From: a virus
Length of the DNA: 33,303 nt
Virus record (IMG/VR): IMGVR_UViG_3300033148_002998
Coordinates: 1 to 33,303 of that record
Strand: one strand, 5' to 3'
Part shown: piece after piece, positions 303 to 29,198 of the stretch
Layout of the letters: each line of letters opens with the position of its first letter
How positions within the stretch are numbered: position 1 is the stretch's first letter
The notes under the pieces: generated by a model
Databases searched by the model: none
Seen by the model: only the letters and a program-made list of their open reading frames with translations
Told to the model about the DNA's origin: nothing
Program-made: the position numbers and the translations under genes

Positions 303-321
303 TAAACTTTTCTAAAGTTTA
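303..321. repeat. Stop-codon hairpin, TAAACTTT core
   Basis: TAAACTTTTCTAAAGTTTA is a perfect 8-bp stem with a 3-base loop (AGA in the leftward transcript). Its first three bases on the minus strand are the TAA stop of the zinc-ribbon gene at 319-474. An identical copy lies at 4681-4699. It belongs to the dispersed CTTTT/AAAAG hairpin family described in the findings. Confidence 0.85.
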
Positions 322-474
322 CTCTTCTAATAGTATTTGTTCTTTGAGTTTTTTTACTCGTTCATTTACTCTAATTAGACAATGTCCACATAACCACATT
401 CCATTGACCAATGTAATCGCTTCATTACCACATCTATCATAATTATGGCATTTAGGTTTATTTAGTATCTTCAT
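319..474 (-). CDS. Zinc-ribbon miniprotein (51 aa)
   Basis: This 51-residue protein starts at ATG 474, overlapping the portal stop codon as TAATG. Cysteines at 9, 15, 29 and 32 (CHNYDRC and CGHC) form two knuckles that could bind one zinc. The C-terminal third (RVNERVKKLKEQILLEE) is a charged helix or short coiled coil. Translational coupling to the portal gene suggests it is made together with it. It is one of several tiny zinc-ribbon proteins in this genome. The molecular function is unknown; nucleic-acid or protein binding is an inference. Confidence 0.75.
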   Translation of the reverse strand: MKILNKPKCHNYDRCGNEAITLVNGMWLCGHCLIRVNERVKKLKEQILLEE

Positions 475-1772
475 TATTTTCTCATCTCTTTAATATAATC
501 ACTAAATTCTTTATCTACTTCTTCTGGTTCTTTCTCTTTTTCTGGTTTTGCTAAATAATTATGAGCTTCTTCTAAATTAAGTAGTGTTGCTATTTCCAAT
601 TCCGCCATTCTTCTCAATGGTTCCGATGTAGATACATTATTTCCTAATAGCTTACTTAATTTATCTATCCTACTATTAATCTCTTCTTCTCCTGGAAGAT
701 TCCATATAAAATCAACTTCATCGTTACTTCCACTTGCTTCGAGTAATGGTTTAAATATTTGCTCTTCTATAATACTTTCTATTTCTTCCTGTATAACAGA
801 CATCTTTTTCTGGAACATCTCTTTTTGTGCTTTCGCTAATCCTTCGGGGATATTACCACCACCGAAAAGGACGATTGGTATTTCCATTCCATAAGCAACA
901 ACCAACATATTATGGTCAAGTGCATCTATTAGATTCTTACCTATTTCACCGAAATCTATAACCTTCATCCTTACATTAGAATCTGTTACCCATTCTGTTC
1001 TATTATTCATAACTTGTAAACTTGTCTTAAAATCATCAACATCTGTTGTATTAACTTGTTCTCCCTCAACACCAACTGCTGCATGAATAGGCGCACCAGC
1101 TTTCCTACTTATGAGTTTCTGTAAATCGTTTTCATTCATGACCATATTTTCTATAGCTTTCTCATTTTGTGATATAATACCGATACCATAAGGTTCTCCT
1201 GCTATTTTATTAATCTTAAGATGAGCAACTTGATACGGCTTAAATACAGTCAATTTTGATTTATTATTTCTTGTGGTTCCTACAAAGTTCCCTATCCATT
1301 GATTATAAGCCACGACATTAGCTTTATCATCACGTTCAACATACATATCATTTGCATTTAGAACTTTGATTCCTTTTCCAACAACATCCAATTCTAAAAA
1401 TCCATTCCCTTTTACAAATCCTTCTCTTATCCATTCCCTTAAAACAGATGTGAAATTTGTATTCTTGACAAAGTCATCTATAATATTATAAGCTTTCTTT
1501 GTTTTCGTCTTGAAGGAAAATTCTCCAACGACTGAATCAGTAATCTTATTAATTCCACCTGTTATAACACCGACAGTTTTATAAACCTTTTCTGCATCCT
1601 CGAAATCAAACGGATGTTCTGCACCTAATGATTTCGGGAATGTTACCAAAGTGTCTCTAACTTCGCCCTTAAATGCTTCCTTTAATACTTCGTTCTTAAC
1701 AGACATATACCCCATTCTTTTATCTGCATCTGTTTCTATTTTCTTTGAATTAAATACATTCTTAAAATTCAT
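474..1772 (-). CDS. Portal protein (HK97-like)
   Basis: About 432 residues. The portal is the dodecameric ring at the capsid vertex through which terminase packages DNA and to which the tail attaches. Family features visible are the N-terminal stretch with TVGVITGGINKITDSVV, a central segment YQVAHLKINKIAGEPYGIG, and a C-terminal region with GMEIPIVLFGGGNIPEGLAK followed by a long helix (QKEMFQKKMSVIQEEIESII), as in HK97-type portals. Length fits the family. The frame extends to a GTG at 1781, but ATG 1772 is the more ordinary start; ribosome binding is weak and the leader looks very short. It lies downstream of terL with a DUF559 gene between. The C-terminus is acidic. Confidence 0.85.
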   Translation of the reverse strand: MNFKNVFNSKKIETDADKRMGYMSVKNEVLKEAFKGEVRDTLVTFPKSLGAEHPFDFEDAEKVYKTVGVITGGINKITDSVVGEFSFKTKTKKAYNIIDDFVKNTNFTSVLREWIREGFVKGNGFLELDVVGKGIKVLNANDMYVERDDKANVVAYNQWIGNFVGTTRNNKSKLTVFKPYQVAHLKINKIAGEPYGIGIISQNEKAIENMVMNENDLQKLISRKAGAPIHAAVGVEGEQVNTTDVDDFKTSLQVMNNRTEWVTDSNVRMKVIDFGEIGKNLIDALDHNMLVVAYGMEIPIVLFGGGNIPEGLAKAQKEMFQKKMSVIQEEIESIIEEQIFKPLLEASGSNDEVDFIWNLPGEEEINSRIDKLSKLLGNNVSTSEPLRRMAELEIATLLNLEEAHNYLAKPEKEKEPEEVDKEFSDYIKEMRK

Positions 1773-1782
1773 AAATAACACA

Positions 1783-1847
1783 TACCGTATATTGGTTTAA
1801 ATAGTATTTATAAGTTTGCTATAAAGCCAACAGCAAACCCAAAAAAG
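1783..1847 (-). promoter_or_regulatory. Probable portal promoter
   Basis: Reading leftward, CTTATAAATAC lies about 37 bases before the portal ATG and is a good archaeal TATA candidate, giving a leader of roughly 10 bases. Just upstream is GCTGTTGGC, a weak match to the ACTGTnnGCG motif seen in other intergenic regions here. The assignment is from sequence pattern only. Confidence 0.5.
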
Positions 1848-1923
1848 TACCCCTGTTAATATAAACACAACCCCATGCCCTAAATATACATAGTTTGGTT
1901 TAACTTTTAAGATATAAAGCGCA
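1848..1923 (-). repeat. Element F copy 1, beside DUF559 gene
   Basis: Read on the minus strand this segment aligns with 30115-30189 read on the plus strand. Shared blocks in order are CTTTATAT, TAA-AGTT, AATATTTA or equivalent, GGGGTTGT, TTATATTAA and AGGGGTA. It lies 17 bases past the stop of the DUF559 gene at 1941-2360. CTTTATAT resembles a TATA box. It could be a promoter, a small RNA gene or a remnant of the sequence that moved with the endonuclease. Confidence 0.6.
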
Positions 1924-1940
1924 CACGGTAAGCTTATAAT

Positions 1941-2360: not shown

Positions 2361-2382
2361 TTATAATCACATCTTAACTTAT

Positions 2383-3912: not shown

Positions 3913-3973
3913 TTAACTTTTTGCCATATAATTTTATTTGGGTATGGGTAAATGGTAATTCCATACAAAAGAC

Positions 3974-4661: not shown

Positions 4662-4680
4662 CTATTCTCGCCGTTTTGAT

Positions 4681-4699
4681 TAAACTTTTCTAAAGTTTA
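4681..4699. repeat. Stop-codon hairpin, second TAAACTTT copy
   Basis: The sequence is identical to 303-321: an 8-bp stem and 3-base loop. On the minus strand the stem begins with the TAA stop of the gene at 4697-5227, and the following gene starts about 20 bases later. The identity extends outward to TTTGAT, suggesting a copied unit rather than chance. Confidence 0.85.
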
Positions 4700-5227
4700 T
4701 TTATATCTTTCACTTATCTTTTCTGCGCCGGACTTTTCTTTATATTCTACTTGGTCATACTGTGCCTTTGTTCTCCTTACTGCTTCTGTCTCATCTTCCA
4801 TAACAGATATGTTATAATCTCCTTCTCTTCCATAACCGGCGTATTTATATCTAAATACCTTTACGAATACATCAAATGGAAACTTCTTGGATATGTTGGC
4901 ATCTCTCTGTTCAGTTACTTCGACCAATTTGATATTAGTAGGTGAACTGTATTTATCCCAATTCATTTTAATTGTTTTTATATCTTCTATCTTTACGAAT
5001 CCATTCTTTCTCATAGAATTCTTGACTTCTATTTTATAATGTTCTTCAAAGTCATCCATTGCTGCTTTTTTCATGAATGGTATTTTCAATTTGGTTTTTT
5101 CTGCCCTTTTATGTGCCAATTCTGTAAGAAAGTTTGTCTTTGCGTCTTTCTTCTTATAAGGTCCAATATCTGTAAAGTTCTTATTTTCTGCTATTGTTGG
5201 TAGTCTATAAATTCCTGCTTCTGCCAT
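4697..5227 (-). CDS. Hypothetical protein (176 aa)
   Basis: This protein is not recognised. It has a basic, helical N-terminal two thirds and a segment with alternating hydrophobics (FPFDVFVKVFRYKYAGYGRE) suggesting a small beta sheet. An acidic-basic tail (EDETEAVRRTKAQYDQVEYK) follows. No cysteines, signal peptide or membrane segment are present. It starts at ATG 5227, four bases after the stop of the coiled-coil gene upstream. It is co-directional with the packaging genes, so an accessory packaging or scaffold-type role is possible from context only. Confidence 0.65.
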   Translation of the reverse strand: MAEAGIYRLPTIAENKNFTDIGPYKKKDAKTNFLTELAHKRAEKTKLKIPFMKKAAMDDFEEHYKIEVKNSMRKNGFVKIEDIKTIKMNWDKYSSPTNIKLVEVTEQRDANISKKFPFDVFVKVFRYKYAGYGREGDYNISVMEDETEAVRRTKAQYDQVEYKEKSGAEKISERYK

Positions 5228-5545: not shown

Positions 5546-6100
5546 TTAATTATACTTACTTAATTTCATTTGTTTATTATCAAATTTGTTAATCCGAATC
5601 TTTGAATCTTTTAAATGTTCTATAGTGTGACAATTTCTACAGAGTATCTCGAAATTATCTATTTCATTATTTTTTCTATTTCTATCCTTATGATGGACTA
5701 ACAAAATTCTTATATCTTCGATGGGACATCTATTACATTTAATACCATAATGTTTTAATGCTCTTTTTCTATAATCTCCAATTCCATTTTTATAACTCAA
5801 ACTCGCTTTTCCTTTTGGATTATTTCTTTTTCTACCATACATAGGATTTCCTTTTCCGACATAACTTCTTCTATTATCGACTATTTTTCTCTTAGTTGAC
5901 TCTGAATGATGTTTGTCTTTCCAATAAGGTATCAATTCCCCCGAAATATATTTTTTCTTTAATGTTTCTGAAATCTTTTTGTTGACGTTCGCGCTTTTTG
6001 GTTTCCCTTTATGAGCTAATCTTATTAAATTCTTAGTTGTTTATGAATGCGTTCTACCTAAATTTGTCTTATGTCCTTTTTGAAATACTATATCAAACAC
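5546..6100 (-). pseudogene. HNH endonuclease with NUMOD3 motifs, broken by in-frame stop
   Basis: The intact frame downstream of the stop encodes a NUMOD3-like DNA-binding segment (KHHSESTKRKI, GKGNPMYG) and an HNH nuclease core (LLVHHKDRNRKNNEIDNFE, then CRNCHTIEH). The zinc cysteines CNRC and CRNC are kept. The same frame continues upstream through another NUMOD3 motif (LIRLAHKGKPKS, and KGHKTNLGRTHS before it) but is interrupted by TAA at 6041-6043, where GAA would restore the usual S-E-T-T-K pattern. The upstream frame reaches a GTG at 6100 just past the glycosyltransferase stop. A shorter product from the TTG at 5935 is possible. It looks like a decayed homing-type gene. Confidence 0.75.
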
Positions 6101-6102
6101 CT

Positions 6103-7194
6103 TTATATTAAAGATTTAATTTTCTGAGCCACCTTCTCCCAACTGTTTTCTCTTGCCGTTTTTAATGCTTCCTTTCCCATCTTCTTCATCTCTTCTGGAT
6201 GTTCATAAGCATATCTTAGTTTTTTTCTAAGGTCGGGTATAGATGGTATTGCCCAAGATATTCCCTCGTACATGACTTCAAATTCTACCTCTTCAAGTTT
6301 GTAATCGATATATAAACCATTTACCTTATCTTTAATATAATCTACTTGACCTCCATATCCTGTCACAATGCAAGGAGTGCTTGTCGCACACGCTTCTATA
6401 CAAGGAAGATTATATGCTTCTGCTCTTGTTGGGCTTACAAATACAGTCGCAGAATTATATAAATCAACCATCTTATCATAAGGGATATTGTTTGTATTTA
6501 TATTTAGTTTCGGTAATCTATCAGGAACTGTTTTATATTCTTTCTTAGGAACTAATTCTTCGATTAGTTTGTTCAAATCAGGTATTCCATAAGCAGGGTT
6601 TATTTTTAATGTTAACTCTACATTATCTTTATCGGTAAACTCTTCAAAGTATGCCCTTATAAGATATTGTATCCCTCCTCTGTCCTGTAAGTTCCTAAAT
6701 CCTTTATTGGCTAAGAATACACACTTATCTGGTTTCTCTTTTGGATAGAACAATTTAAGGTCTACTCCATGAGGAATAAGTTTCACTTTGTCCATAAGTT
6801 TCATTCCTATTAATGGTGTTTCCATGAGAGTTTTCTTCAATGCATCTATTACATGTTTGCTTGGAACGAATATGTACTCTATATCCTTATCCATACATAA
6901 CTCTACATAATGCTTTGGTATCTTATCTCCTTCTGCAATCAAATAAACCCAATTTCTTTTGGCATTTAAATTAAGTTTCCAATATAAGGGATTGGTCACA
7001 CATAAATTAATTTCGTCGTTTTGTTCAACCTTTTTTAAAAGGTTGAGTTCTTTATCATCTACCATTCGTTCCCAATTTGGAACTCCGCCAGTAGTAACTC
7101 TTACATCAGTAATCTTATCTAATGCTCTTACTAAATTCCTTGTATGGTTTGAATAACCATCACTTCCAAAAAAACTTCCTATTACATTTATCAT
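6103..7194 (-). CDS. GT4-family glycosyltransferase
   Basis: About 363 residues of GT-B fold. The C-terminal nucleotide-sugar half has the family signature FVSPTRAEAYNLPCIEACAT followed by GYGGQVDYI, with the E-x7-E arrangement, and IPHGVDLKLFYP in the linker. This predicts retaining transfer of a sugar from an NDP-sugar to a glycan, lipid or protein in the cytoplasm. No membrane segment is present. ATG 7194 has GGGGATGAAA in front; ATG 7200 is the alternative. It overlaps or abuts the GT2 gene upstream, so both belong to one operon. A CTTTT/AAAAG hairpin lies inside at 7025-7046. Confidence 0.88.
   Translation of the reverse strand: MINVIGSFFGSDGYSNHTRNLVRALDKITDVRVTTGGVPNWERMVDDKELNLLKKVEQNDEINLCVTNPLYWKLNLNAKRNWVYLIAEGDKIPKHYVELCMDKDIEYIFVPSKHVIDALKKTLMETPLIGMKLMDKVKLIPHGVDLKLFYPKEKPDKCVFLANKGFRNLQDRGGIQYLIRAYFEEFTDKDNVELTLKINPAYGIPDLNKLIEELVPKKEYKTVPDRLPKLNINTNNIPYDKMVDLYNSATVFVSPTRAEAYNLPCIEACATSTPCIVTGYGGQVDYIKDKVNGLYIDYKLEEVEFEVMYEGISWAIPSIPDLRKKLRYAYEHPEEMKKMGKEALKTARENSWEKVAQKIKSLI
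7025..7046. repeat. Intragenic hairpin in GT4 gene
   Basis: TCAACCTTTT and AAAAGGTTGA form a perfect 10-bp inverted repeat around two T bases. In the gene it is read as codons for L-N-L-L-K-K-V-E, the same register as the other coding copies. Confidence 0.8.
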
Positions 7195-7196
7195 TT

Positions 7197-8099
7197 TCAT
7201 CCCCTCATTATTAAGTTAGTCTCTTTTAATAAAGCCAATTCACTTGGAGTATTGTCTTGATTGAACTTTTTTAAAAGTTCATCTTTATGTTTCCTTGTAA
7301 ACTCTTCAAATACCTTTTGATTAAACACAGTTAAATCTCTACTATCTTGGAATCGTTCTCCACCGCTTGGAGTCATCTGATGATAGTTTACAGCAAGAGT
7401 GTCCACACCTATCTTATATCCTTTCATCTGTGCAGTATAACTGAATATTTGCTCTTCTCTAAATCCATGTTTACTGAACTTTGTTGGATAGTATTTCACC
7501 TTTTCATGAACTTCTTTCTTTATAAGGGCGCAACTTCTAAAATGGTGTGCTGGTAATATCATTGATTCTGTATAAGCCCATCCACAATCATCGCCATTCA
7601 TGATATGATTGCCATCTTTGTCCAATATAACTCTATTCACTATACCATTCAAATGTTTTGGGTCTCTTTTGAATATCGGTCCAGTCATAGGACATGTAAC
7701 ACCACTTGCTATATCATATCCTTTATTGATTACTTTAAACAACCGTTCTATATAATCAGATTCCAATATAACATCATCATCTACTCTAAGCAGGTATTTA
7801 TAATCTCTTTTTGATAGTGCATAATCTACTATTACTTGTCTTGCTCTACTTACACCATGTGGAAAGTCTGTTCTTTTTATAAACACATTATGGTCTTCTA
7901 ATTTCATTCTTGTCATTATACAGTTAAAGAAATGGTAATTGCTTAATGGCGTACCAGAACAATCATCCAATATAACCACATCAAAATTCTGATATGTCTG
8001 TGTTCTCAAACTTTGAAGTAATAAAGACAATTCTGTAGGTCTATCCTTTACACATATCAACACCGCAGTTCGATTATTTTCTTTCATATTTTTTTCCAT
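7197..8099 (-). CDS. GT2-family glycosyltransferase
   Basis: 300 residues of GT-A fold. The N-terminal Rossmann half has TAVLICVKDRPTELSLLLQS and VVILDDCSG. The metal-binding DXD motif is LLRVDDDVILESDYIE near residue 120. A later acidic motif HGFREEQIFSYTAQ may hold the catalytic base. It is probably an inverting transferase using an NDP-sugar. The start ATG 8099 lies inside the 3' end of the HNH gene and has an AGGTGATACATT ribosome site supplied by HNH codons. Its stop overlaps the GT4 gene. Confidence 0.88.
   Translation of the reverse strand: MEKNMKENNRTAVLICVKDRPTELSLLLQSLRTQTYQNFDVVILDDCSGTPLSNYHFFNCIMTRMKLEDHNVFIKRTDFPHGVSRARQVIVDYALSKRDYKYLLRVDDDVILESDYIERLFKVINKGYDIASGVTCPMTGPIFKRDPKHLNGIVNRVILDKDGNHIMNGDDCGWAYTESMILPAHHFRSCALIKKEVHEKVKYYPTKFSKHGFREEQIFSYTAQMKGYKIGVDTLAVNYHQMTPSGGERFQDSRDLTVFNQKVFEEFTRKHKDELLKKFNQDNTPSELALLKETNLIMRG
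7262..7281. repeat. Intragenic hairpin in GT2 gene
   Basis: TGAACTTTTTTAAAAGTTCA is a perfect 9-bp stem around two T bases. It encodes D-E-L-L-K-K-F-N near the C-terminus, in the same codon register as the other coding copies. Confidence 0.8.
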
Positions 8100-8754
8100 A
8101 ATGTATCACCTGATGACACCAATAACACAATGTCACACCATTTTTTAATTCTAATATTAATTCGGGATAATCTTTTATTTGTTTAATATGATGAGATTGT
8201 AATATATCCTTATTTTCACATCCGCAATTCTGACAAATGTAATGGTCTCTTTCTTTAATATCTTTTGACCATTTTGCCAATTTTGAGGATATATGCGATT
8301 TAAATTTCATCCATTCTTTGGTTTTACCTCCTTGCCAATTTGGATTTAATTCAAATGGTAATCCTTTCTTCTTATTTATTTCATCGGAATACGTTTTACC
8401 TAAATTCCATTGTCTTATTTTCTCTCTTACTTCTGGTCTCTTAGATGGATTATTATCTCCTTTAACTCTTTCGCTCAATCTTTGTTTATATTCATCTGTG
8501 TGTTTCATCCAACCTTTCAACCCTTTATTCCATGCTTTGCGTCCTTTTTGTGATTCACTTAATTTAGATTTTTGTTCTTCGGTCCATTTTATCCCCGTAC
8601 TTCCACTCGACTTCCCAATTTTTGACTTATGATAACATTCCATACTACAATAATTCCGTTTAACAGATGGAAATTCTAAATGTATTTTTCCACAAGTCTT
8701 GCATATTTGTTCTATTTTGTGTATTTTTCCTTTATTCCATGCAATTCTTTTCAT
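8074..8754 (-). CDS. HNH homing-type endonuclease with NUMOD3 and zinc motifs
   Basis: About 226 residues. The N-terminal zinc motif has C-x2-C (CKTCGK) and NYCSMEC. NUMOD3-like repeats follow (TEEQKSKLSESQKGRKAWN, then EYKQRLSERVKGDNNPSK and EVREKIRQWNLGKTYSDE). The C-terminal HNH core is CQNCGCENKDILQSHHIKQ and CYWCHQVIHYG. This is the architecture of phage free-standing homing endonucleases. ATG 8754 is chosen because GAGGTTGGGAAT precedes it; ATG 8772 is possible. The reading frame is intact, unlike the other HNH gene. The downstream GT2 start is embedded in its end. Confidence 0.85.
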   Translation of the reverse strand: MKRIAWNKGKIHKIEQICKTCGKIHLEFPSVKRNYCSMECYHKSKIGKSSGSTGIKWTEEQKSKLSESQKGRKAWNKGLKGWMKHTDEYKQRLSERVKGDNNPSKRPEVREKIRQWNLGKTYSDEINKKKGLPFELNPNWQGGKTKEWMKFKSHISSKLAKWSKDIKERDHYICQNCGCENKDILQSHHIKQIKDYPELILELKNGVTLCYWCHQVIHYGKKYERK

Positions 8755-8871
8755 ATTCCCAACCTCTTTCATAAGTTAATATTTCTTTCAGATGTGTTAC
8801 AAATTCTTTTATATCCTTTTTTGTTAATGTTCCCATAGTTGCTATATGTAGCACCTTTCCATTTAGTTCAT
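8732..8871 (-). pseudogene. Small ORF, apparently frameshifted at its start
   Basis: A good ribosome site and start (GAGGCGAT then ATG at 8871) open a frame that stops after two codons. The neighbouring frame runs on as LNGKVLHIATMGTLTKKDIK, then EFVTHLKEILTYERGWEYEK, ending at 8732 inside the HNH gene. A single-base change near 8866 would join them into a protein of about 46 residues. Alternatively translation begins at GTG 8854 or ATG 8836. The protein-like composition suggests a real small gene, now broken or with an unusual start. The call is weak. Confidence 0.35.
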
Positions 8872-8886
8872 ATCGCCTCTTTTGCC

Positions 8887-9008
8887 GAATTAAACGGAAT
8901 AGGTTATAATTTTTGTTTAAGCATACCTAAATGATAAACATTTTAAAAACATGCCTACTGTGTGCGTTAATGGTTAACTGCAATACCGCCTACTGTATGC
9001 GGTTTTGT
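8887..9008 (+). repeat. Duplicated intergenic element E, copy 1
   Basis: It aligns without gaps to 18788-18908. Shared blocks are GAATTAAACGGAATA, ATAAT, GTTTAA, ATACCTAAATG, CTACTGT, GCGTTAAT, TTAACT, CAATA and a second CTACTGT. Two ACTGT-type motifs lie 35 bases apart at 8953-8970 and 8988-9006. The second can fold as ACCGC/GCGGT followed by TTTT. Reading leftward, a TATA-like AAAATTATAACC near 8903-8914 lies about 36 bases before the ATG at 8871, so this copy may be the promoter of the HNH-GT2-GT4 operon. An imperfect palindrome (8915-8932, TTTAAGCATACCTAAA) sits just upstream of that box. Confidence 0.8.
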
Positions 9009-9020
9009 AATTTATACCAT

Positions 9021-9149
9021 TTATAACACAGGTTTAAACCCCATTGATTCTATCAGATATTTTCCTTTCTTTTTACAATTCTTTGAACAATATCTGTATG
9101 ACTTATCTTGATGGATGAGTGGTGTCCCACAATATAAACAATATTTCAT
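9021..9149 (-). CDS. Zinc-finger miniprotein (42 aa)
   Basis: 42 residues starting at ATG 9149 in a TAATG overlap with the GT2 stop codon. Cysteines at 4, 7, 21 and 25 (YCLYCGTP and YCSKNCKKKG) form a treble-clef-like or FCS-type zinc finger, followed by a basic stretch. The size is close to the minimum for a metal-stabilised domain. It is coupled to the glycosyltransferase upstream. DNA or protein binding is likely; the partner is unknown. Confidence 0.7.
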   Translation of the reverse strand: MKYCLYCGTPLIHQDKSYRYCSKNCKKKGKYLIESMGFKPVL

Positions 9150-9802
9150 TATATCAACTTATGTTTCTTTCTAAAATATCTTGCCATTCGTACCTTTGTT
9201 TCTTCATCATCCACATTTCCATGTTCTGTTAATCTATGGTGTTGTACCCAATAGTCTATAACCCCAATGCCCATTCCTGCTTTAAATGTTCTATAACTAT
9301 AATCAACATCGTTACCTGTACTCATATTCTCATCAAATAAACCTATTTTATTTATAGTTCTTCGTGGTATATAATTACTCCATGTACCAACCCATTTTAA
9401 CTTATCATAATATTCCTTTGTTGATTCTCCATAACCTGCAATAGTTGTAACTTGTCCAATATTTTCTCTTTTTGAACCCATACTTAATTCAGCTAACCAA
9501 TCTCTTCCCAGCATCTTAAAATGAATAACATCGTCTTGTGTCAAATAAACATCCAAATTACCCGCTTTTTTAATTCCATAATTTAGCGCATTAGTCATTC
9601 CATTTAGGGGTATATGATACACTTCAACATTATTCTTTTTTGCTAACTTATCACAGTATTCTTTTGTGCCATCTGTACTCTCGCTTTCTATAAGAAGCAA
9701 TTTAAATGGGTGCTGTGTCGATTCAAATAATGATTCTGTAGCAAACTTTATAAATGGCATACTATTCATACATGGTAATATAATCGCAGTTTTCAATCTC
9801 AT
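9149..9802 (-). CDS. GT2-family glycosyltransferase (217 aa)
   Basis: This is a compact GT-A enzyme. The N-terminus is AIILPCMNSMPFIKFATESL, then LLLIESESTDGTKEY as the nucleotide-binding loop. The metal site is VYLTQDDVIHF, a TQDD version of DXD, and FDENMSTGNDVDYSYR is the usual acceptor-side E/D-x-D motif. No transmembrane segments are present, so it acts in the cytosol. The ATG at 9802 overlaps the radical SAM stop (ATGA), implying translational coupling. It likely adds one sugar in a pathway with the neighbouring transferases. Confidence 0.85.
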   Translation of the reverse strand: MRLKTAIILPCMNSMPFIKFATESLFESTQHPFKLLLIESESTDGTKEYCDKLAKKNNVEVYHIPLNGMTNALNYGIKKAGNLDVYLTQDDVIHFKMLGRDWLAELSMGSKRENIGQVTTIAGYGESTKEYYDKLKWVGTWSNYIPRRTINKIGLFDENMSTGNDVDYSYRTFKAGMGIGVIDYWVQHHRLTEHGNVDDEETKVRMARYFRKKHKLI

Positions 9803-10887
9803 ATTAACATCCTATCCATTTTGTCTTTTATAAATATCTGTTCAAAGAATTCATTATATGCAGTTAGGGTACATCTATCACAATTCTTTTTAAAGTTAAT
9901 CTTGTTCACTTTATAGAAGTGTGATTCACTACCCCAATAATCTATAACATTCTTTGGGTTGGGATAATGGTCAACCAATTTACTCCAATTGTTTCCCCTT
10001 GAATCAGTACACATATAAACACTTCCATCTGCCGCCCATGTCGATGTCAGCATTGTTGCTCGGCACTTTTCAAACAGATGCTTTCTTGATAGATTGGAGT
10101 TGAATTTATGCTGAACTCCGAATACCTGATAATCATCTGACTCAAAATCTCTTTGAGCATTATTTATCTGTTGCCATATATTATCTATTTCACCCTCACT
10201 ATAAACATAATTATCTATAGCGGGTCTAAATTGAAAATGGTTGCATCCAATGTCTCTTCCTATCTTAGCTGCTTTATAGATAGAGTTCTGGTTATAACGG
10301 TCTAACAGAAATTTATATCCTATTTGAACATTTCCCTTAGTATCTGCTATTCCTTTAAGGTTAGCGATTACTTTATCAAACTGTTCCGCCTTTACTCCTT
10401 TCACTTTTGCATAATCCTCAGGTGTTCCGGCATCTATACTGAATCCGACAAATTTACAATGTTGATTTATGAGTTTCCACCAATTCTCATTTACCAAATA
10501 GCCGTTGGTAACAAATCCTAAGTCTAATCCATTCTTACCACATTCTTCTATAAAGGGTCTGCAATCTGCGTGTAAAGTTGGCTCACCACCTCCAGCCAAA
10601 CAAACCGCTTTAACTCCCCATTCTTTCCATATCTTGGGTAATTTCAATGAATATTTCAAAGGTAAACTCGCATTTCCGAATCTGTGGTCTTGCGATTGCT
10701 TATCCATTCTTTCCCTTTGTCCGCCGAACATACAGAATCTGCATTTATAGTTACACTTGTTGGTTAAGTCTATGTTAATTACTATAGGAGGTAATGGCTC
10801 TCCTTTCAATATCGCTTTAAAATGTTCGGCATGAGTCAATGCTTTCCAACTATTAAAGGGGTTGTATTTATTTGTCCACTCCTTCAT
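9799..10887 (-). CDS. Radical SAM enzyme with SPASM-like C-terminus
   Basis: 362 residues. The canonical C-x3-C-x2-C cluster motif is LTNKCNYKCRFC (Cys45, 49, 52) and binds the 4Fe-4S cluster that cleaves S-adenosylmethionine. The SAM-binding GGGEP follows at 99-103. C-terminal cysteines at 275, 293, 336 and 339 (KCRATM, YMCTDS, CDRC) suggest a SPASM or twitch auxiliary cluster. Such proteins modify peptides, sugars or cofactors; the substrate here is unknown. The gene is locked by ATGA overlaps between a methyltransferase and a GT2 transferase, which favours a role in building or modifying the same glycan or glycoprotein. Confidence 0.88.
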   Translation of the reverse strand: MKEWTNKYNPFNSWKALTHAEHFKAILKGEPLPPIVINIDLTNKCNYKCRFCMFGGQRERMDKQSQDHRFGNASLPLKYSLKLPKIWKEWGVKAVCLAGGGEPTLHADCRPFIEECGKNGLDLGFVTNGYLVNENWWKLINQHCKFVGFSIDAGTPEDYAKVKGVKAEQFDKVIANLKGIADTKGNVQIGYKFLLDRYNQNSIYKAAKIGRDIGCNHFQFRPAIDNYVYSEGEIDNIWQQINNAQRDFESDDYQVFGVQHKFNSNLSRKHLFEKCRATMLTSTWAADGSVYMCTDSRGNNWSKLVDHYPNPKNVIDYWGSESHFYKVNKINFKKNCDRCTLTAYNEFFEQIFIKDKMDRMLI

Positions 10888-11339
10888 TTAACCGCCCTCA
10901 AAAGAAATTTTAGTTCTCTTCCTTCATTAAACATTTGTTCATTTATCGTTTCAAATTCTGCACCCTTTGTTACTGTAGACCAATTCTCAACAATGTTTTT
11001 ATTCGGATGTAATTCTCGAGGTGTCCATATCTCAAAGTATCCTGGTCTAATAAATCTTTTATGATGGGGTTGAATCGCCCAAAAAAGAAAATAACAACAT
11101 GGCGCAATTATAATCACTTCTGCATTTGGTTTGCATACTCTCCATATTTCATGCATAAATTCAAGCACATCATCTACATGTTCTATTACATGAGAACAGT
11201 AAATGTTATCTACCGAATCATCTTCAAATGGAAATCTTTTATTTAAATCAACCACCTTATCAGGACAACATGTTTTATCCGAATCCACATTTAACCATCC
11301 TTCCATTGGTCTATTTCCACTACCTAAATTTACTTTCAT
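10884..11339 (-). CDS. SAM-dependent methyltransferase (class I)
   Basis: About 151 residues. The SAM-binding motif I is MKVNLGSGNRPMEGWLNVD at the very N-terminus, then a motif IV-like FEDDSVDNIYCSHVIEHV with the acidic-to-hydrophobic pattern of methyltransferase type 11 enzymes. The fold seems short, missing the usual N-terminal cap. ATG 11339 is favoured because GGTGA lies six bases upstream; ATG 11345 is the alternative. It overlaps the fusion gene upstream and the radical SAM gene downstream. It probably methylates a sugar, lipid-linked intermediate or small molecule of the island. Confidence 0.85.
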   Translation of the reverse strand: MKVNLGSGNRPMEGWLNVDSDKTCCPDKVVDLNKRFPFEDDSVDNIYCSHVIEHVDDVLEFMHEIWRVCKPNAEVIIIAPCCYFLFWAIQPHHKRFIRPGYFEIWTPRELHPNKNIVENWSTVTKGAEFETINEQMFNEGRELKFLLRAVK

Positions 11340-12622: not shown

Positions 12623-12741
12623 AATAACCCCTCTTTTTTATAATCTTCTACTTCTGTGCAACCTTCACAAATGGGATTTTGTCTTTCCCACGGAAATAAA
12701 TAAGACCCACATCTTTCACACTTTTCATATTCCTTATTCAT
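12619..12741 (-). CDS. Zinc-ribbon miniprotein (40 aa)
   Basis: 40 residues. CERCG and CEGC knuckles (Cys8, 11, 25, 28) flank a short linker with FPWERQNP. It starts at ATG 12741 inside the stop region of the gene upstream (ATGA) and ends in an ATGA overlap with the GT2-methyltransferase fusion, so it is translated in a chain with both. No catalytic residues are evident. It is probably a small adaptor or nucleic-acid binder. Confidence 0.75.
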   Translation of the reverse strand: MNKEYEKCERCGSYLFPWERQNPICEGCTEVEDYKKEGLL

Positions 12742-13168: not shown

Positions 13169-13181
13169 ATAATCATCTCTA

Positions 13182-14475: not shown

Positions 14476-14476
14476 T

Positions 14477-17998: not shown

Positions 17999-18017
17999 TG
18001 ACCTTTTCTAAAGGTCA
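17999..18017. repeat. Leader hairpin upstream of 18045 gene
   Basis: TGACCTTTTCTAAAGGTCA is a perfect 8-bp stem with a TCT loop on the plus strand. It lies 27 bases before the ATG at 18045, with GAGGTGTTATATAA as the ribosome site after it. The stem sequence differs from other copies but pairs perfectly. Confidence 0.8.
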
Positions 18018-18044
18018 AACAAATATAAATGAGGTGTTATATAA

Positions 18045-18266: not shown

Positions 18267-18383
18267 ATGGAAGATATAAATATCAAGATATTAATGGAAC
18301 TCAAACAAATGAACAGAACATTAAATTCAATAGATAAGAGTTTTGTAAACTTTTATAAAAAGTTCGAGGTGTATGAAGAATGA
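18267..18383 (+). CDS. Helical miniprotein (38 aa)
   Basis: 38 residues directly after the previous stop (TAA then ATG). The whole length is one amphipathic helix pair (NIKILMELKQMNRTLNSIDK, then SFVNFYKKFEVYEE). It overlaps the next start as ATGA, so expression is coupled. A family hairpin lies inside at 18348-18364 and overlaps the region that encodes NFYKKF. Its function is unknown. Confidence 0.65.
   Translation: MEDINIKILMELKQMNRTLNSIDKSFVNFYKKFEVYEE
18348..18364. repeat. Intragenic hairpin in 38-aa gene
   Basis: AACTTTTATAAAAAGTT is a perfect 7-bp stem with an ATA loop, read as codons for N-F-Y-K-K-F. It lies about 16 bases before the next ATG and could affect its translation. Confidence 0.75.
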
Positions 18384-18769
18384 AGACAAAAACTATAAAA
18401 GGAAATAACATATTACAACTTTTAGGAAAAGTTGATGAAAACTATAAAGCAAAGAGAGAAGAAGACGGTTTAGATAAACTCGGTCAAAAAGAAGGGTGTT
18501 TTATATTATATGAAACGCTTAAAGTAAATGAAGATATGAGTTGGAGTGCATCGGCAGTTTGCTCAAGCTTTGAAAAAGCTTGTGAGTGGGGATTCAAAGT
18601 TCCTCCTAATGAGGTTGATTTGGATATAATCAGATTCCAACTATCTCGTTCATCAATAGAATTTGGTCGCTTTTATATAAATCACATGCGCAAGAAAGCA
18701 CCACAGACTTATGCCCTATTAGTAAAGAGATGTCCCAACGTGAAGCAATATGCGAGGGAAGGGGAATAA
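18380..18769 (+). CDS. Hypothetical protein (129 aa)
   Basis: 129 residues, last gene of the rightward block. It is a mixed alpha/beta protein with GCFILYETLKVNEDMSWSAS, SFEKACEWGFKVPPNEVDLD and a basic C-terminal half (IIRFQLSRSSIEFGRFYINH then MRKKAPQTYALLVKRCPNVK). It has no recognised motif or membrane segment. It contains two of the dispersed hairpins (18416-18434 and 18564-18582). A T-rich terminator candidate follows the stop. Confidence 0.65.
   Translation: MKTKTIKGNNILQLLGKVDENYKAKREEDGLDKLGQKEGCFILYETLKVNEDMSWSASAVCSSFEKACEWGFKVPPNEVDLDIIRFQLSRSSIEFGRFYINHMRKKAPQTYALLVKRCPNVKQYAREGE
18416..18434. repeat. Intragenic hairpin, AGG loop
   Basis: CAACTTTTAGGAAAAGTTG is a perfect 8-bp stem. 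It encodes Q-L-L-G-K-V-D and differs from the helicase copy only in the loop. Confidence 0.85.
18564..18582. repeat. Intragenic hairpin, GAA loop
   Basis: CAAGCTTTGAAAAAGCTTG is a perfect 8-bp stem with a GAA loop, encoding S-S-F-E-K-A-C. It is the second copy inside the 129-residue gene. Confidence 0.8.
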
Positions 18770-18926: not shown

Positions 18927-18951
18927 GTTTAAGCTTTTTTAAAGCTTAAAC
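18927..18951. repeat. Longest stop-codon hairpin, terminator-like
   Basis: GTTTAAGCTTT and AAAGCTTAAAC form a perfect 11-bp stem with a 3-base loop. It contains the TAA stop of the collar protein gene and is the last structure of the long leftward virion operon, so it may also mark the mRNA 3' end. Confidence 0.85.
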
Positions 18952-19359
18952 TCTTACTTTTATGAAAAATACCAGTTCATAATATGGTGGCTCATTTCCA
19001 GTGTGAACATGTGCTCCATGTGTTCCTAAATTAAATGAACCTCCAGGACTCAATACATCAAATGCATCTATTCCGGCGGTTGGATTTCCAGTACTTGTAC
19101 TTCCGCCTGTTGTTCCACTTGTTTCATTGTCACTTGCTTTTATAAACTTATTCTCCAAATTAGGTGTAGTTGCCGTTATAGTTGGTTCTGTTACTCCTTG
19201 GCTGCTTGCTGTTGTTCCATCGCATATTGCCCACCCTCTTGTTTGAAGTGTTGCTTTGGTTACCGCTCCTGTTATAGTAAGAGCGAACATTCTCACTTCT
19301 CCAAGGATTCCATCTGGGGGAATCCCAAAAACCGGTCCATTACTCGTCATTTGTACCAT
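18946..19359 (-). CDS. Tail collar-domain protein (fibre tip)
   Basis: 137 residues. GEVRMFALTITGAVTKATLQ, then RGWAICDGTTASS and TPNLENKFIKAS match the phage tail-collar pattern (small turn, G-W-x-x-C-D-G, P-x-L-x-x-x-F). The ending NEPPYYELVFFIKV is the common C-terminal motif of collar fibres, and HGAHVHTG resembles the His-rich metal-binding tips of such trimers. It probably sits at the distal tail for host recognition. GGTGAATCAAT precedes ATG 19359. The stop lies in the 11-bp hairpin. Confidence 0.85.
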   Translation of the reverse strand: MVQMTSNGPVFGIPPDGILGEVRMFALTITGAVTKATLQTRGWAICDGTTASSQGVTEPTITATTPNLENKFIKASDNETSGTTGGSTSTGNPTAGIDAFDVLSPGGSFNLGTHGAHVHTGNEPPYYELVFFIKVRV

Positions 19360-19384
19360 ATTGATTCACCTTTATAATTTTAAT

Positions 19385-19403
19385 CAATCTTTTTAAAAGA
19401 TTG
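19385..19403. repeat. Stop-codon hairpin after 19393 gene
   Basis: CAATCTTTTTAAAAGATTG is a perfect 9-bp palindrome around one T. The TAA stop of the gene at 19393 lies in its centre, and the collar gene starts 26 bases further on. Confidence 0.85.
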
Positions 19404-19764
19404 TCATTGTTCCAGATATCAAGCTTCCGGTACTTGTTGCCAAACTTCCATTGGTTTGATACCAAAATACTTGTTTTATAGTACTTCCTATAGAAGCACC
19501 GCTGAATATAATTTCTATTGGATTCTCATTTATATTATAAGAACCTATTACTGTATAATGCTGAGTCGGTCCACTTATAGTAGCCGATGTCAAGTTTCCC
19601 ATACTATTAGTAGTATAAGTCATATCTTGAGCCTGTGGAAAATTAAATAATCCAAAGTTCATTCTACCAGTTATATCATTTAATCCGCTTACTCCTGTAT
19701 TAGTTCCAGTTGTTCCTGCTGTAAGCATGGCTCCACTGCCAAATTGTTCATGTAATAATCCCAT
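19393..19764 (-). CDS. Tail-tip structural protein (123 aa)
   Basis: 123 residues, rich in Gly, Thr, Ser and Asn with beta-type alternation (NPIEIIFSGASIGSTIKQVF, TGSLISGTMTIF), lacking Lys and nearly all charge. The composition is that of a fibre or tip protein. It lies between the baseplate-linked gene and the collar protein, all co-directional. The ribosome site is GGTGAGATGATATAA before ATG 19764. Specific family not recognised. Confidence 0.7.
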   Translation of the reverse strand: MGLLHEQFGSGAMLTAGTTGTNTGVSGLNDITGRMNFGLFNFPQAQDMTYTTNSMGNLTSATISGPTQHYTVIGSYNINENPIEIIFSGASIGSTIKQVFWYQTNGSLATSTGSLISGTMTIF

Positions 19765-19795
19765 TTATATCATCTCACCATTTGTTATTTTTGAT

Positions 19796-19816
19796 TAAAC
19801 TTTTTCTAAAAGTTTA
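19796..19816. repeat. Stop-codon hairpin after 19814 gene
   Basis: TAAACTTTT and AAAAGTTTA form a perfect 9-bp stem with a TCT loop. The minus-strand stem starts with the stop codon at 19814-19816. The sequence is the 303 copy with one extra base pair. Confidence 0.85.
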
Positions 19817-20188
19817 CGCTCCGCTTATTCCAAATCTTATTGTTGCTTGTATTTGTAGTTCCAAATCTCCATCAAAACATATGCTCCCTACAGTAGGCAT
19901 AGTTTCGCGCATAAAAAGACTACCCGCCGTTTCTGCATTGAGTAATCCCCATTCTGCAAATACTGTTCCACTTACTCTTGTCGAACTATAATCTGCTATG
20001 TAAGTCACATCTTTGGCTACACTCAAATCTATAGAAGTGAGAGGATTTCTAAGATTTTCTGATACCAATACAGTATTTCCTGATACTGGTGTCGTACTTC
20101 CTGCTCCTAATGCTATATAGGAAGGAATTGCACCAGAACCTCCCATTAATCCTGCTAATGATTTCAAACTATCTGTTGTTAATGTCAT
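19814..20188 (-). CDS. Tail fibre or tip-associated protein (124 aa)
   Basis: About 124 residues from ATG 20188, chosen because GGAGGATATTAAT precedes it; the upstream start at 20206 lies inside the hub gene. PSYIALGAGSTTPVSGNTVL, then VTYIADYSSTRVSGTVFAEW and WGLLNAETAGSLFMRETMP are beta-rich patterns seen in phage fibre-like small proteins (the I-A-L-G-x-G-T-T-x-x-x motif followed by E-x-G-L). A C-terminal strand is LQIQATIRFGIS. It likely attaches to the hub upstream. Confidence 0.7.
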   Translation of the reverse strand: MTLTTDSLKSLAGLMGGSGAIPSYIALGAGSTTPVSGNTVLVSENLRNPLTSIDLSVAKDVTYIADYSSTRVSGTVFAEWGLLNAETAGSLFMRETMPTVGSICFDGDLELQIQATIRFGISGA

Positions 20189-20189
20189 A

Positions 20190-21758
20190 TTAATATCCTC
20201 CTCCACTTGCTACAAATACACTTCCGAGTATTCCTTGCTCTAAGTTTCCTACACCTATCCTACTATCTTCGCTTTCTATAAGACCATGTTTAGCTGAATG
20301 AAATATAAAATTATTTCCTACGTCTGCTTTCCATACTTCCCAATGTTGGTCAACATCTACATATTTCGTTGTTGTTTTTAGTGTAGTGAAGTTTCCTTCT
20401 AATGGTCCGACTTCCACATTTCTCATCCTTAACATTTGGTCTTTTAAAGTATCTGTGAAATCGCTTATCTTTTTATTAACTTCTAATGTTAATACTTTAT
20501 TTGTCAGATTATTTGATTTATTGAATGAATATGATGCAGACAATATAGTATAGGTTTGATTATTTATACCATGCCACGGAAGGTCTACTATACAAGTATT
20601 TCCAGCATCAATATTTATAACTCCTTTTAAGTTTATACTTCCTTGTATTTTTGGGTCTTTATTATTAGCAATAAAAGTTGCTGCTCTATCATTTGCTTCA
20701 ACATAACTTTTGATATTATTATCTTTTATAATCTTTGTCTTTGGACCATAATCTGTTATACTATCTGTGTCTTGTCTAAACTTCATTATAGGAGTACTCC
20801 TTTCATAATCGATAGTTATCGGTAAAGTTCCACTTACTGGTATGTTATCTCCGGCTGCTGCTCCAGAAACGAATATTATTTCTTTTTCGTTAAAGTCTAC
20901 AACATACTTAGAGTCTTGAGTTGCGGGGTCTGTCATCCCAAAAATACCTCCAGGTTGTATAAATACATCATGAGATGTAACTCTTGTATTATGAGGTTTG
21001 TCTTCTAATGAAAACACAGAACCTGTTCCGTCAGCAGCAAAAGATTCTGTTTTACCAGTTAAAACTCTGTCGCCATAAACCCATACTTTATTAAATACTT
21101 CTTTGTCATCTTTTATAAAGTTTGCATTATAAACACTATTCTTATCGAATGTTCTATAGGATGGCACTGATTCTTTTGCTATAAAATGTACATCTTTATT
21201 CACATCGACATAAAAATAACAATCCGATAATTCAGCCAATTCTTTTAATGATTCAAATATATTCTTATGATTAAATCCTATCTTTTCGATAGTAGTTCCT
21301 GTATTAATATCTACATTATTTGTTGTTACTATGTTTTCTGCATTCGTTGCTATTATAGTTCTTGCTATCAATCCAGCATCCTTATTCTTAAAAATAATAG
21401 GTTGGACTGTCATATCTTGTAATACTGCACCGTAATCACGTCCAGTTAATACAAGTCTTTCATCTTCTGCACTACCACTAAAGTCTATCTTTTCTATTAT
21501 GCCTGTAAATATCTTAGTTGTTGGAGGATTAGTTCCTATATCTGCATAAATTATAACTTCATCATTTAAACTAAATGTGTCTTTATAACAACCTATAAAA
21601 TTATCAAATTCTATAGTGAAGTTTGAAGTTCCATTATAATCACCAATACTTTTTTCTACATTAATTTGATAGACATCTGAATATGTCGTTCCATCTATAG
21701 TAAGTTTGGTATAGGTGGTTCCTACTACAGGAATAAATTTTGGATTGAATTTCACCAT
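20190..21758 (-). CDS. Baseplate hub / late control D-like tail protein
   Basis: 522 residues. TKIFTGIIEKIDFSGSAEDE and RLVLTGRDYGAVLQDMTVQP are the hallmark F-x-G-x-I...L-x-G-x-D-Y of gp27/gpD-type hub proteins, which form the ring at the tail tip around the spike. A middle FESLKELAELSDCYFYVDVN and YTILSASYSFNKSNNLTNKV fit the second half of that fold. The C-terminal 90 residues (after DVDQHWEVWKAD) are extra and may hold a small fibre-docking domain. GGTTGATATAA overlaps the stop of the gene upstream. Confidence 0.82.
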   Translation of the reverse strand: MVKFNPKFIPVVGTTYTKLTIDGTTYSDVYQINVEKSIGDYNGTSNFTIEFDNFIGCYKDTFSLNDEVIIYADIGTNPPTTKIFTGIIEKIDFSGSAEDERLVLTGRDYGAVLQDMTVQPIIFKNKDAGLIARTIIATNAENIVTTNNVDINTGTTIEKIGFNHKNIFESLKELAELSDCYFYVDVNKDVHFIAKESVPSYRTFDKNSVYNANFIKDDKEVFNKVWVYGDRVLTGKTESFAADGTGSVFSLEDKPHNTRVTSHDVFIQPGGIFGMTDPATQDSKYVVDFNEKEIIFVSGAAAGDNIPVSGTLPITIDYERSTPIMKFRQDTDSITDYGPKTKIIKDNNIKSYVEANDRAATFIANNKDPKIQGSINLKGVINIDAGNTCIVDLPWHGINNQTYTILSASYSFNKSNNLTNKVLTLEVNKKISDFTDTLKDQMLRMRNVEVGPLEGNFTTLKTTTKYVDVDQHWEVWKADVGNNFIFHSAKHGLIESEDSRIGVGNLEQGILGSVFVASGGGY

Positions 21759-24786: not shown

Positions 24787-24791
24787 TCTTG

Positions 24792-26885: not shown

Positions 26886-26887
26886 AT

Positions 26888-27689: not shown

Positions 27690-27712
27690 TCTATATTTAA
27701 AAGGTATTTAGC

Positions 27713-28756
27713 TCACCATGGATTGTATTTATGTGTTCTGTCCCATACACTTCCTGCTACTGTTTGTGGTCTTATTTCTACAGAAGTTTCGGTTGTATCT
27801 GCATCTGCTGAACTTGGGTTGTCCATCGAAGTTACTTGGCATCCACTCATTATAAGGGTAGTGTGTTTACTTCCTACTGCTGTAATGTCTGCATTCATAT
27901 CCAAGTTTGCATTGAACGTACTTCCACCTCTATAACACTCTTCATACAACCACATTGCATCTTGTCCATCCAAGTCCATTGTAACATTTAGGGTATAATC
28001 TTTCTTGCTACTATATGGTACACCTATAACCTTACTTCCATTTATATAATGAGGTGCGTTCATATACGAATTAACTTCAAGACTTATTTCTTTTGCTGTG
28101 TCCATAACACTACCTGCAAGAGTCAATAAACAATCATCCCACATATAAGGGGTTAGATATTGTGTCCCACTATTTACAAGAGTCGTTGTTGTTCCTGAAC
28201 TTGGTATTATGTGTTCTGCTATATAATCCACATCCATTGTTGCCTTTTCACCTTGTGATAGTGTCAAAGTAGTTGTATTGTTCACAGTTCCTTTTATAGT
28301 TCTAACAAAGTTTCTACCTGTTCCAACAGACTGTTTTGAATCTTCTATTGTAAAACTCATTGGAGCTGGATGTGTATCTGTTCCTGATATAAATGGACTC
28401 TGCCATACATCACTATTCACTTCACTTACAGCATGAGTACATGTTGTCAAAGTCGCACCTGATACTTCTACTATTGAACCAATTGCATAAAACAACATTC
28501 TCATATCATGTGGATGGAATGTCAATGTCCCTGTATCATCTTTTGGTCCTTGTTCCATTGTATCATATGTTCTTTTACCAGTTCCCATATATCTATCATC
28601 TGAATAATTCTCTGCATCATCTATACTGTTTTCTGTAACTTGTCCTATCCAAAATGTACTTCCTGCTACCCCATCTGCACCTGCGCAGTTATGAGCATAA
28701 GTTCCAGATTCATGTATTCCTACGACTTTATTCTGGTCTCCTATAAATCTTGCCAT
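27713..28756 (-). CDS. Major tail tube protein candidate
   Basis: 347 residues. It is beta-rich, with Thr/Ser/Gly and few charges, and has repeating strand-turn patterns (RTIKGTVNNTTTLTLSQGEK, KDYTLNVTMDLDGQDAMWLY) reminiscent of tail tube folds. It has the strongest ribosome site of the operon (AAAAGGAGGTAATTAAG), as expected for the most abundant tail protein, and lies just upstream of the chaperone and tape measure genes. Three cysteines are scattered. A capsid role is less likely from its place in the operon. Confidence 0.75.
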   Translation of the reverse strand: MARFIGDQNKVVGIHESGTYAHNCAGADGVAGSTFWIGQVTENSIDDAENYSDDRYMGTGKRTYDTMEQGPKDDTGTLTFHPHDMRMLFYAIGSIVEVSGATLTTCTHAVSEVNSDVWQSPFISGTDTHPAPMSFTIEDSKQSVGTGRNFVRTIKGTVNNTTTLTLSQGEKATMDVDYIAEHIIPSSGTTTTLVNSGTQYLTPYMWDDCLLTLAGSVMDTAKEISLEVNSYMNAPHYINGSKVIGVPYSSKKDYTLNVTMDLDGQDAMWLYEECYRGGSTFNANLDMNADITAVGSKHTTLIMSGCQVTSMDNPSSADADTTETSVEIRPQTVAGSVWDRTHKYNPW

Positions 28757-28757
28757 C

Positions 28758-28976
28758 TTAATTACCTCCTTTTATTATATTTATTATCTTTTCCACCCTA
28801 CCTTTTTCGTATTGTGGAATATCTGTTATACCTTTAGATTTAAGTATCTTAATTTGTTCTGCTTTTGTCAAATCATAAAGCTCTTGTTCTGTAAAGTTTA
28901 GTTTCTTCATTTTTGTGTCTTTTAGTCTCCATGGTTCGTATTTTTCAATCCAATCTATCTCATCTCTATCAGACAT
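28758..28976 (-). CDS. Small HeH/Rho-N-like helical protein (72 aa)
   Basis: 72 residues. FTEQELYDLTKAEQIKILKS followed by KGITDIPQYEKGRVEKIINI reads as helix-extended loop-helix: L-T-K-A-E-Q-x-x-x-L-x-x-x-G-I, then K-x-R-V-E-x-I-I. This fits the LEM/HeH/Rho-N group of small nucleic-acid or protein binding folds, often seen near phage head-tail genes. GGTGAGATT precedes ATG 28976. It abuts the tail tube gene. Confidence 0.65.
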   Translation of the reverse strand: MSDRDEIDWIEKYEPWRLKDTKMKKLNFTEQELYDLTKAEQIKILKSKGITDIPQYEKGRVEKIINIIKGGN

Positions 28977-28980
28977 AATC

Positions 28981-29154
28981 TCACCCCTTAATCATTTTAC
29001 TTGCATCATATTTATTGATTCTAAGTTCATGTGCAATCTCTTTTGTATTAAGTCCTTCTTTCGCCAATCTTTTCGCTTTTGTTTTTATACTTACCTTTTT
29101 CACTTTCTTTACAGGAACTGATTCTTTCTTTACCTTTCGTATAATATTTTCCAT
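28981..29154 (-). CDS. Basic helix-turn-helix miniprotein (57 aa)
   Basis: 57 residues. A lysine-rich N-terminal arm (about 20 residues with KKVKK twice) is followed by KAKRLAKEGLNTKEIAHELR and INKYDASKMIKG, a textbook helix-turn-helix (A-K-x-G-L-x-x-x-E-I-A-x-x-L). A ribosome site AAAGGTGATATA precedes ATG 29154. It probably binds DNA or RNA. Its place inside the tail morphogenesis genes is unusual and suggests a late regulator or DNA-condensing role. Confidence 0.72.
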   Translation of the reverse strand: MENIIRKVKKESVPVKKVKKVSIKTKAKRLAKEGLNTKEIAHELRINKYDASKMIKG

Positions 29155-29178
29155 TATATCACCTTTATTTATTTTGAT

Positions 29179-29198
29179 TAAACTTTTTTAAAAGTTTA
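29179..29198. repeat. Stop-codon hairpin after 29196 gene
   Basis: TAAACTTTTTTAAAAGTTTA is a 9-bp stem around two T bases, with the same TTTGAT-type flank as 303 and 4681. The stem starts with the stop codon at 29196-29198 on the minus strand. Confidence 0.85.

Follow-up and report, generated by a model that had tools for sequence, protein, structure and literature searches.

Hairpins in the virus record

The stretch of DNA analysed here (the window) is the linear virus record IMGVR_UViG_3300033148_002998 of IMG/VR (33.3 kb, 32% GC). It encodes a portal protein, a large terminase, a tape measure protein, tail completion proteins, a radical-SAM protein and several glycosyltransferases, and it carries a tRNA-Pro gene. 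Dispersed among these genes are 15 short hairpins with a CTTTT-loop-AAAAG core, which an initial annotation had described as perfect inverted repeats and proposed to be either a viral RNA signal or a mobile mini-palindrome. All 15 sites were found at the coordinates given there; 14 of them are perfect, with stems of 7–11 bp, while the hairpin at 15001 contains one G-T pair (TCGAC/GTTGA, tail strand). Hairpins with the core CTTT...AAAG and a stem of at least 8 bp were counted 13 times in the window, compared to a mean of 0.067 and a maximum of 2 in 300 dinucleotide shuffles. In codon-preserving shuffles, in which every protein was kept, the six coding hairpins compare to a mean of 0.072, and none of 500 shuffles reached six. 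The hairpins are real, exceed chance expectation and are not purely viral. Overlooked in the initial annotation was a conserved A-N-CAAAA tail on the 3' side, directly after the stem, which gives the element a direction. The tail allows a direction to be assigned to 14 copies (by eye in the case of 18564), of which 12 are oriented with the local genes. The E values given below for the viral copies were obtained with a covariance model built from genome-contig copies only.

As had been noted before, the stop codon of six genes is part of a hairpin; these genes and the corresponding copies are all on the minus strand. The hairpin TAAACTTT-AGA-AAAGTTTA is found twice, at 303–321 with the tail ATCAAAGA (unit 295–321, stop of the open reading frame (ORF) 319–474; E 0.0047) and at 4681–4699 with the tail ATCAAAAC (unit 4673–4699, stop of ORF 4697–5227; E 7e-5). 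An 11-bp hairpin, GTTTAAGCTTT-AAA-AAAGCTTAAAC, with a weak tail (18927–18951, stop of gene 18946–19359) gave no model match at E ≤ 1, while CAATCTTT-TAA-AAAGATTG followed by ATTAAAAT (19377–19403, stop of gene 19393–19764) was matched with an E of 0.002. The best match to the host model was TAAACTTTT-AGA-AAAAGTTTA with the tail ATCAAAAA (19788–19816, stop of gene 19814–20206; E 2e-7); the same arms with an AA loop and the tail ATCAAAAT are located at 29171–29198 (stop of gene 29196–29648; E 1e-5).

Seven copies, and not eight as counted initially, are located inside called genes, and the shared register claimed for them applies to five (7025, 7262, 15001, 17672 and 18416), which read L-L-x-K-[V/F]. 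Two are on the minus strand in neighbouring glycosyltransferase genes: TCAACCTTTT-AA-AAAAGGTTGA with the tail AACAAAAC (7018–7046, gene 6103–7200, peptide LNLLKKVEQN; E 2e-5) and TGAACTTTT-AA-AAAAGTTCA with the tail ATCAAGAC (7254–7281, gene 7197–8099, peptide DELLKKFNQDN; E 4e-4). The imperfect hairpin TCGACTTTTAGAAAAAGTTGA with the tail CAAAATGG (14994–15021, minus strand) lies within gene 14477–15160 (E 0.04). On the plus strand, CAACTTTT-AGA-AAAAGTTG with an A-rich 3' flank (17671–17698) is part of gene 15980–17857 (peptide QLLEKVEK; E 0.009), and CAACTTTT-AGG-AAAAGTTG followed by ATGAAAAC (18415–18442) of gene 18380–18769 (E 0.007). The copy at 13968, CAAGCTTT-TAA-AAAGCTTG with the tail ACCAAACA (13960–13986, minus strand, gene 13255–14484; E 0.05), reads A-F-K-K-L. 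The copy at 18564, CAAGCTTT-TTC-AAAGCTTG with the tail AGCAAACT (18556–18582, minus strand), uses another frame, its tail being antisense to gene 18380–18769, and had no model match at E ≤ 1. The two remaining copies are TGACCTTT-TCT-AAAGGTCA with the tail AACAAATA (17999–18025, plus strand, between two plus-strand genes; E 0.12) and AACTTTTTATAAAAGTT with the minus-strand tail TACAAAAC (18340–18364, just upstream of the plus-strand gene at 18380; E 0.03).

Architecture of the unit

In the best copies, read on the transcript strand, the unit consists of w-x-A-z-C-TTTT, a loop and AAAA-G-z'-T-x'-w', followed immediately by A-n-C-AAAA. It is approximately 28 nt long, with a loop of 3 nt in the generalised form and an unpaired tag, A-n-C-AAAA; the w and x pairs are free in sequence, yet paired. 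Pairing was tested on unselected copies from an Aenigmatarchaeota genome (G001), of which only core and tail were required. The outer pairs were Watson-Crick in 281 of 292 cells, about 95–97% at each position. Pair 4 occurred in all four types (CG 17, TA 17, GC 27, AT 9) and pair 3 as AT (38), GC (16) and CG (15). Past pair 4, pairing in the G001 list was approximately at chance level, the extent of the stem being exact; among the 88 units of the 918-kb G001 contig, the stem is typically 9 bp. Stem sub-families with alternative complementary residues were also present in a set selected for perfect stems. In other sets, the Watson-Crick fraction was lower at some positions, e.g. 48 of 65 for pair 1 in the genomes G003 and G007, where chance matches of AT-rich sequence are likelier. 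These unselected host copies lend strong support to the earlier proposal that structure is under selection, as judged from arms that change and still match. The scarcity of G-T pairs in G001 (about 1%) speaks in favour of DNA, or of an RNA with very strict pairing.

The tail is related to the stem in both length and letters. The length of its A-run tracks that of the T-run in the stem (rho 0.60 in G001, 0.82 in G010, 0.57 in G003 and 0.49 in mixed loci). Where the stem has a paired C past the T-run, the tail has G (8 of 8 cases), and a stem G goes with a tail A (10 of 12). Likewise, n is T in 290 of 301 units with z=A, A in 15 of 20 with z=C, and G or C in 9 of 10 with z=G. As a mirror image of the 3' arm that runs parallel to the 5' arm, the tail has the geometry of a third strand; from the sequence letters, it would appear to lie along the stem in this way. 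Among G001 units, CCN loops occur with the tail CAAAAGGG, CAN loops with CAAAACGG and GCTGCTC with CAAAAGAGG, associations that represent either sub-families or loop-tail pairing. Only tRNA and rRNA reached the gathering threshold in an Rfam search, with no family at the hairpins, and a permissive Rfam search gave no match at the hairpins either.

Distribution in cellular and viral genomes

The TAAAC-type unit with its tail was detected in at least 119 stretches of bacterial and archaeal genome contigs. Among the matches listed, most are from DPANN archaea (Woesearchaeota, Aenigmatarchaeota, Diapherotrites, Micrarchaeota), Methanophagales and Methanosarcinales, and some are from Clostridia, Spirochaetia and Aminicenantes. 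The exact tagged pattern was present in 6 to 55 copies in each of 10 genomes tested, six of them DPANN and one a member of the Spirochaetia, compared to no copy of a reversed control pattern. Most of these copy-bearing genomes are metagenome bins of unstated completeness, and individual contigs may have been assigned wrongly; as the unit occurs across so many bins, a general artefact is unlikely. At many loci there are several copies that differ in their stems, in part directly adjoining head to tail at a spacing of 27–29 nt. Copy number is patchy within the family of G001: the two highest counts are 55 and 14, all others are 5 or fewer, and 8 of 19 genomes have no copy. The unit is also frequent in a genome with 47% GC.

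The covariance model, built from 41 genome-contig copies, matched all window hairpins except those at 18564 and 18927 (13 of 15; E 2e-7 to 0.12, 12 at ≤ 0.05), and the viral hairpins belong to the same family as the genome copies. In nine related virus loci (L005–L013), the same model gave nothing significant (best E 0.44), while it matched nine places in L018, an archaeal-like virus contig encoding a TFIIB zinc ribbon and an ERCC4 nuclease. Further virus contigs carry a few copies. The units are dense in L018 and in the window, where there is about one copy in 2.2 kb, compared to about one in 10 kb on the G001 contig. This contig (C2; L155–L174, L190–L215) also contains other dispersed multi-hairpin repeats of 100–160 bp, e.g. 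at 606620–606780 and 641280–641400, which are unrelated to the CTTTT core.

Presence, placement and direction of the copies

G001 and its nearest relative, G020, differ in their copies at orthologous sites. The Pus10-like gene of G001 has about 7 additional amino acids (+21 nt) exactly at the copy compared to that of G020 (78% identical), and all 12 homologues compared are shorter than G001 at the copy site. One further site differs by about +19 nt. Several other orthologous sites show presence or absence, and one copy is common to both genomes; at a site adjoining a tRNA-like sequence, each genome has a copy with changed but matched arms. The viral coding copies at 7025 and 7262, in contrast, show no indel relative to their orthologues, so that units appear both with and without a change in length. 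Absence of the window hairpins at orthologous places in relatives had been put forward as evidence against them. They are indeed absent there in related viruses, which points to recent gain rather than to accidental hairpins.

At stop codons, 41 units of all sets are sense and 6 antisense, compared to 58:44 between co-directional genes and 43:24 inside ORFs. In G001, 18 of the 41 units downstream of a sense gene begin at most 3 nt from its stop codon. The ORF calls behind these orientation counts are mechanical (longest ORF); a codon-score gene caller was rejected for G001, since it called only 34% of the sequence as coding.

The virus and its genes

The virus is probably an archaeal virus. 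An archaeal and possibly DPANN host is suggested by the style of its surface proteins and by a terminase search of 371 and 87 genomes from two DPANN phyla, which yielded a single weak partial match (44%) in a genome of the Woesearchaeota phylum. A megablast search of the window against a phage collection gave no match. Glycosyltransferase genes, together with genes for a methyltransferase and the radical-SAM protein, form a cassette at 6103–14484 that adjoins the packaging genes and suggests modification of surface glycans. Two similar small DUF559 (endonuclease-like) genes (1941–2360 and 29707–30066) are located amid structural genes, and HNH/NUMOD3 genes are found at 5546–5935 and 8074–8772; the virus is rich in probable homing endonucleases.

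Comparison with known repeats

The unit has its closest counterparts in the tagged repetitive extragenic palindromic (REP) elements of bacteria, of which the defining survey names only the GTAG and CGTC kinds (Di Nocera et al. 2013, PMC3733652). These are palindromes of 20–40 bp with an unpaired GTAG or CGTC end, loops of 2–3 nt and alternative complementary residues in the stem; they prefer gene 3' ends, supply stop codons, are in part intragenic and are unevenly distributed between species (PMC3733652). The archaeal family is likewise a short dispersed palindrome (stem criterion 5–13 bp) with a tag at one end, short loops and complementary stem alternatives, and it is found near gene 3' ends, supplies stop codons, is sometimes intragenic and differs in abundance between species. 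For the CGTC class, no transposase is known (PMC3733652), and the archaeal family is also mostly without one. Its unpaired end, A-N-CAAAA (TTTTG-N-T on the other strand), is in contrast neither GTAG nor CGTC. Further differences are a tag that follows the sequence and length of the stem, the rarity of G-U pairs, the head-to-tail tandem units and the occurrence mainly in DPANN, other archaea and archaeal viruses. Unlike in the GTAG REP system with its REP-associated tyrosine transposase (RAYT), no Y1 gene flanked by the repeats was found. In the REP survey, the words archaea and virus or phage are either absent or restricted to reference titles (PMC3733652), and literature on drum and skipping-rope RNAs, DPANN palindromes, archaeal triplexes and archaeal-virus repeats yielded nothing describing the unit.

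A small single-stranded DNA hairpin with an adjoining unpaired tag is also found in the subterminal ends of IS200/IS605 elements (TnpA Y1), in which the adjacent tetranucleotide and cleavage site are read via base interactions and triples at the hairpin foot (PMC6006769). These hairpins are the closest precedent for a tag interacting with its own hairpin. Unlike them, the archaeal units occur mostly in genomes in which no Y1 transposase was found, are not located beside the Y1 genes of the others and do not form two ends with an element body in between. The hairpin together with its tail, TGAACTTTT..AAAAGTTCA-ATCAAAA, also occurs in multi-hairpin repeats of Clostridia (e.g. L095, and virus contigs L014 and L016), again with arms that are variable but matched. 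In these, however, it is embedded in a longer compound repeat that comprises additional hairpins and, in many cases, an ACTTT extension on the 3' side. Such compound palindromic repeats ending in a family-like hairpin with tail are located at 8727–8830 in L014, 2930–3030 in L016, and 852–871 and 1788–1807 in L095, where the 3' ACTTT could form an alternative hairpin.

Interpretation and alternative explanations

The hairpins are best read as REP-like mini-palindromes with a third type of tag, forming a family of archaea and their viruses that had not been listed before. That they are copies of a tagged family working like bacterial REP elements is the explanation we favour, with roughly even confidence. 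Among the initial proposals, a mobile mini-palindrome tolerating coding sequence fits best, the host copies being dispersed, patchy and present or absent at orthologous sites. As far as can be judged from its letters, the unit has a self-matching tail and is probably recognised in the folded state as single-stranded DNA. In this reading, the tag would form a third strand next to the stem, and a putative trans-acting factor would recognise the folded single-stranded DNA (perhaps RNA as well) and spread or fix the unit; the virus would have acquired or evolved its copies because it met the same factor in the host. A more specific version is offered tentatively and seems to us rather less probable: the tail, as a mirror of its own 3' arm, would fold back into a compact triple-helical unit recognised by putative non-Y1 machinery common to DPANN hosts and their viruses, and the unit would arise by substitution alone in coding sequence as well as spread between sites.

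Several observations weigh against the REP-like explanation. No indel separates the viral coding copies at 7025 and 7262 from their orthologues of the same length in L006 and L007 (LNLLKKVEQNDE / LELIKRKPVKDE and DELLKKFNQDN / VELNKIFNKDN), so that both were probably formed in place and not by insertion. A Y1 transposase (PF01797) was not found in 7 of the 10 copy-bearing genomes (G001, G003 and G006–G010, which are bins), there are no copies at the Y1 loci of the remaining three, and self-comparison of G001 around the copies revealed no autonomous parent. The correlation of tail and stem runs is not significant in G007 (rho 0.23, p 0.15), and the permutation tests on tail and stem ignore relatedness among copies. 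Finally, 67 units are on the minus strand of the G001 contig and 21 on the plus strand, where 48% of the gene bases are plus, a bias only partly explained by gene direction. It is possibly linked to replication; a replication-strand account was tried and rejected, as the bias does not switch cleanly at any point of the contig and the GC skew is not usable. In G001, repeats covering the copies are about 100–130 bp long with no gene inside, IS200/IS605-like paired hairpin ends around a transposase or cargo were not found at the copies, and a regular-expression scan of the proteins for HUH motifs gave no convincing candidate.

The main rival is a structured RNA element of mRNA 3' ends, the tail of which would lie in a groove (as a minor-groove A triplex or a minimal H-type pseudoknot) and which would protect or process transcripts or act at the stop codon, evolving in place where the coding sequence allows. 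The strong sense excess at stop codons, the sense orientation of most viral copies with readable direction, the origin of the copies at 7025 and 7262 without indels and the tail tracking the stem in length and letters all agree with this. The nearly random orientation away from stop codons, the rarity of G-U pairs, the chromosome-strand bias, the additional amino acids in Pus10 and the lack of an Rfam family above threshold at the hairpins do not, and we consider it unlikely on balance; an mRNA 3'-end role may nevertheless coexist with REP-like behaviour. A purely viral RNA-processing or mRNA 3'-end signal, as initially suggested, is not supported as such, since members of the family occur in cellular genomes too, a large number of copies are antisense and G-U pairing is rare. 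It appears improbable that a Y1 HUH transposase (RAYT) moves the hairpins, be it as classical REPs or as ends or remnants of IS200/IS605 elements: hairpin size and unpaired tag match, the IS200/IS605 cleavage site is read beside the hairpin foot (PMC6006769) and Y1 genes are present in three of the ten genomes, but the other seven gave no Y1 match, the Y1 loci lack copies, the tag is of neither known type and IS200 is the only Y1 subclass reported in archaea (PMC6006769).

Less probable still are binding sites of a dimeric DNA-binding protein, i.e. dispersed operators resembling phage stoperators. Such sites could be dispersed, directional, near gene ends and dense in virus genomes, as the units are; the half-sites of a double-stranded operator need not covary, however, whereas pairs 3 and 4 change together almost without exception, which disfavours this explanation, and the tail in addition tracks the length of the stem. 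Intrinsic terminators, or a by-product of AT-rich sequence and a coiled-coil peptide LLxKV, can hardly be maintained, even though the virus genome is AT-rich and five copies encode the L-L-x-K-[V/F] motif. The codon-preserving and dinucleotide shuffles (means of about 0.07) exclude them, the 3' flank is A-rich without a T-run, terminator-like matches are at the shuffled level, and the unit is common in the 47% GC genome.

REP-like repeats of bacteria shape genomes and mRNA ends and are of use in genotyping. A family with a third kind of tag that follows its own stem, which is frequent in DPANN archaea, densely represented in what is probably an archaeal virus and in most cases not accompanied by the usual transposase, suggests a so far undescribed factor handling single-stranded DNA or RNA. 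With a length of approximately 28 nt and exact rules, the unit is directly testable in vitro, and it could act as a signature for pairing uncultured archaeal viruses with their hosts.

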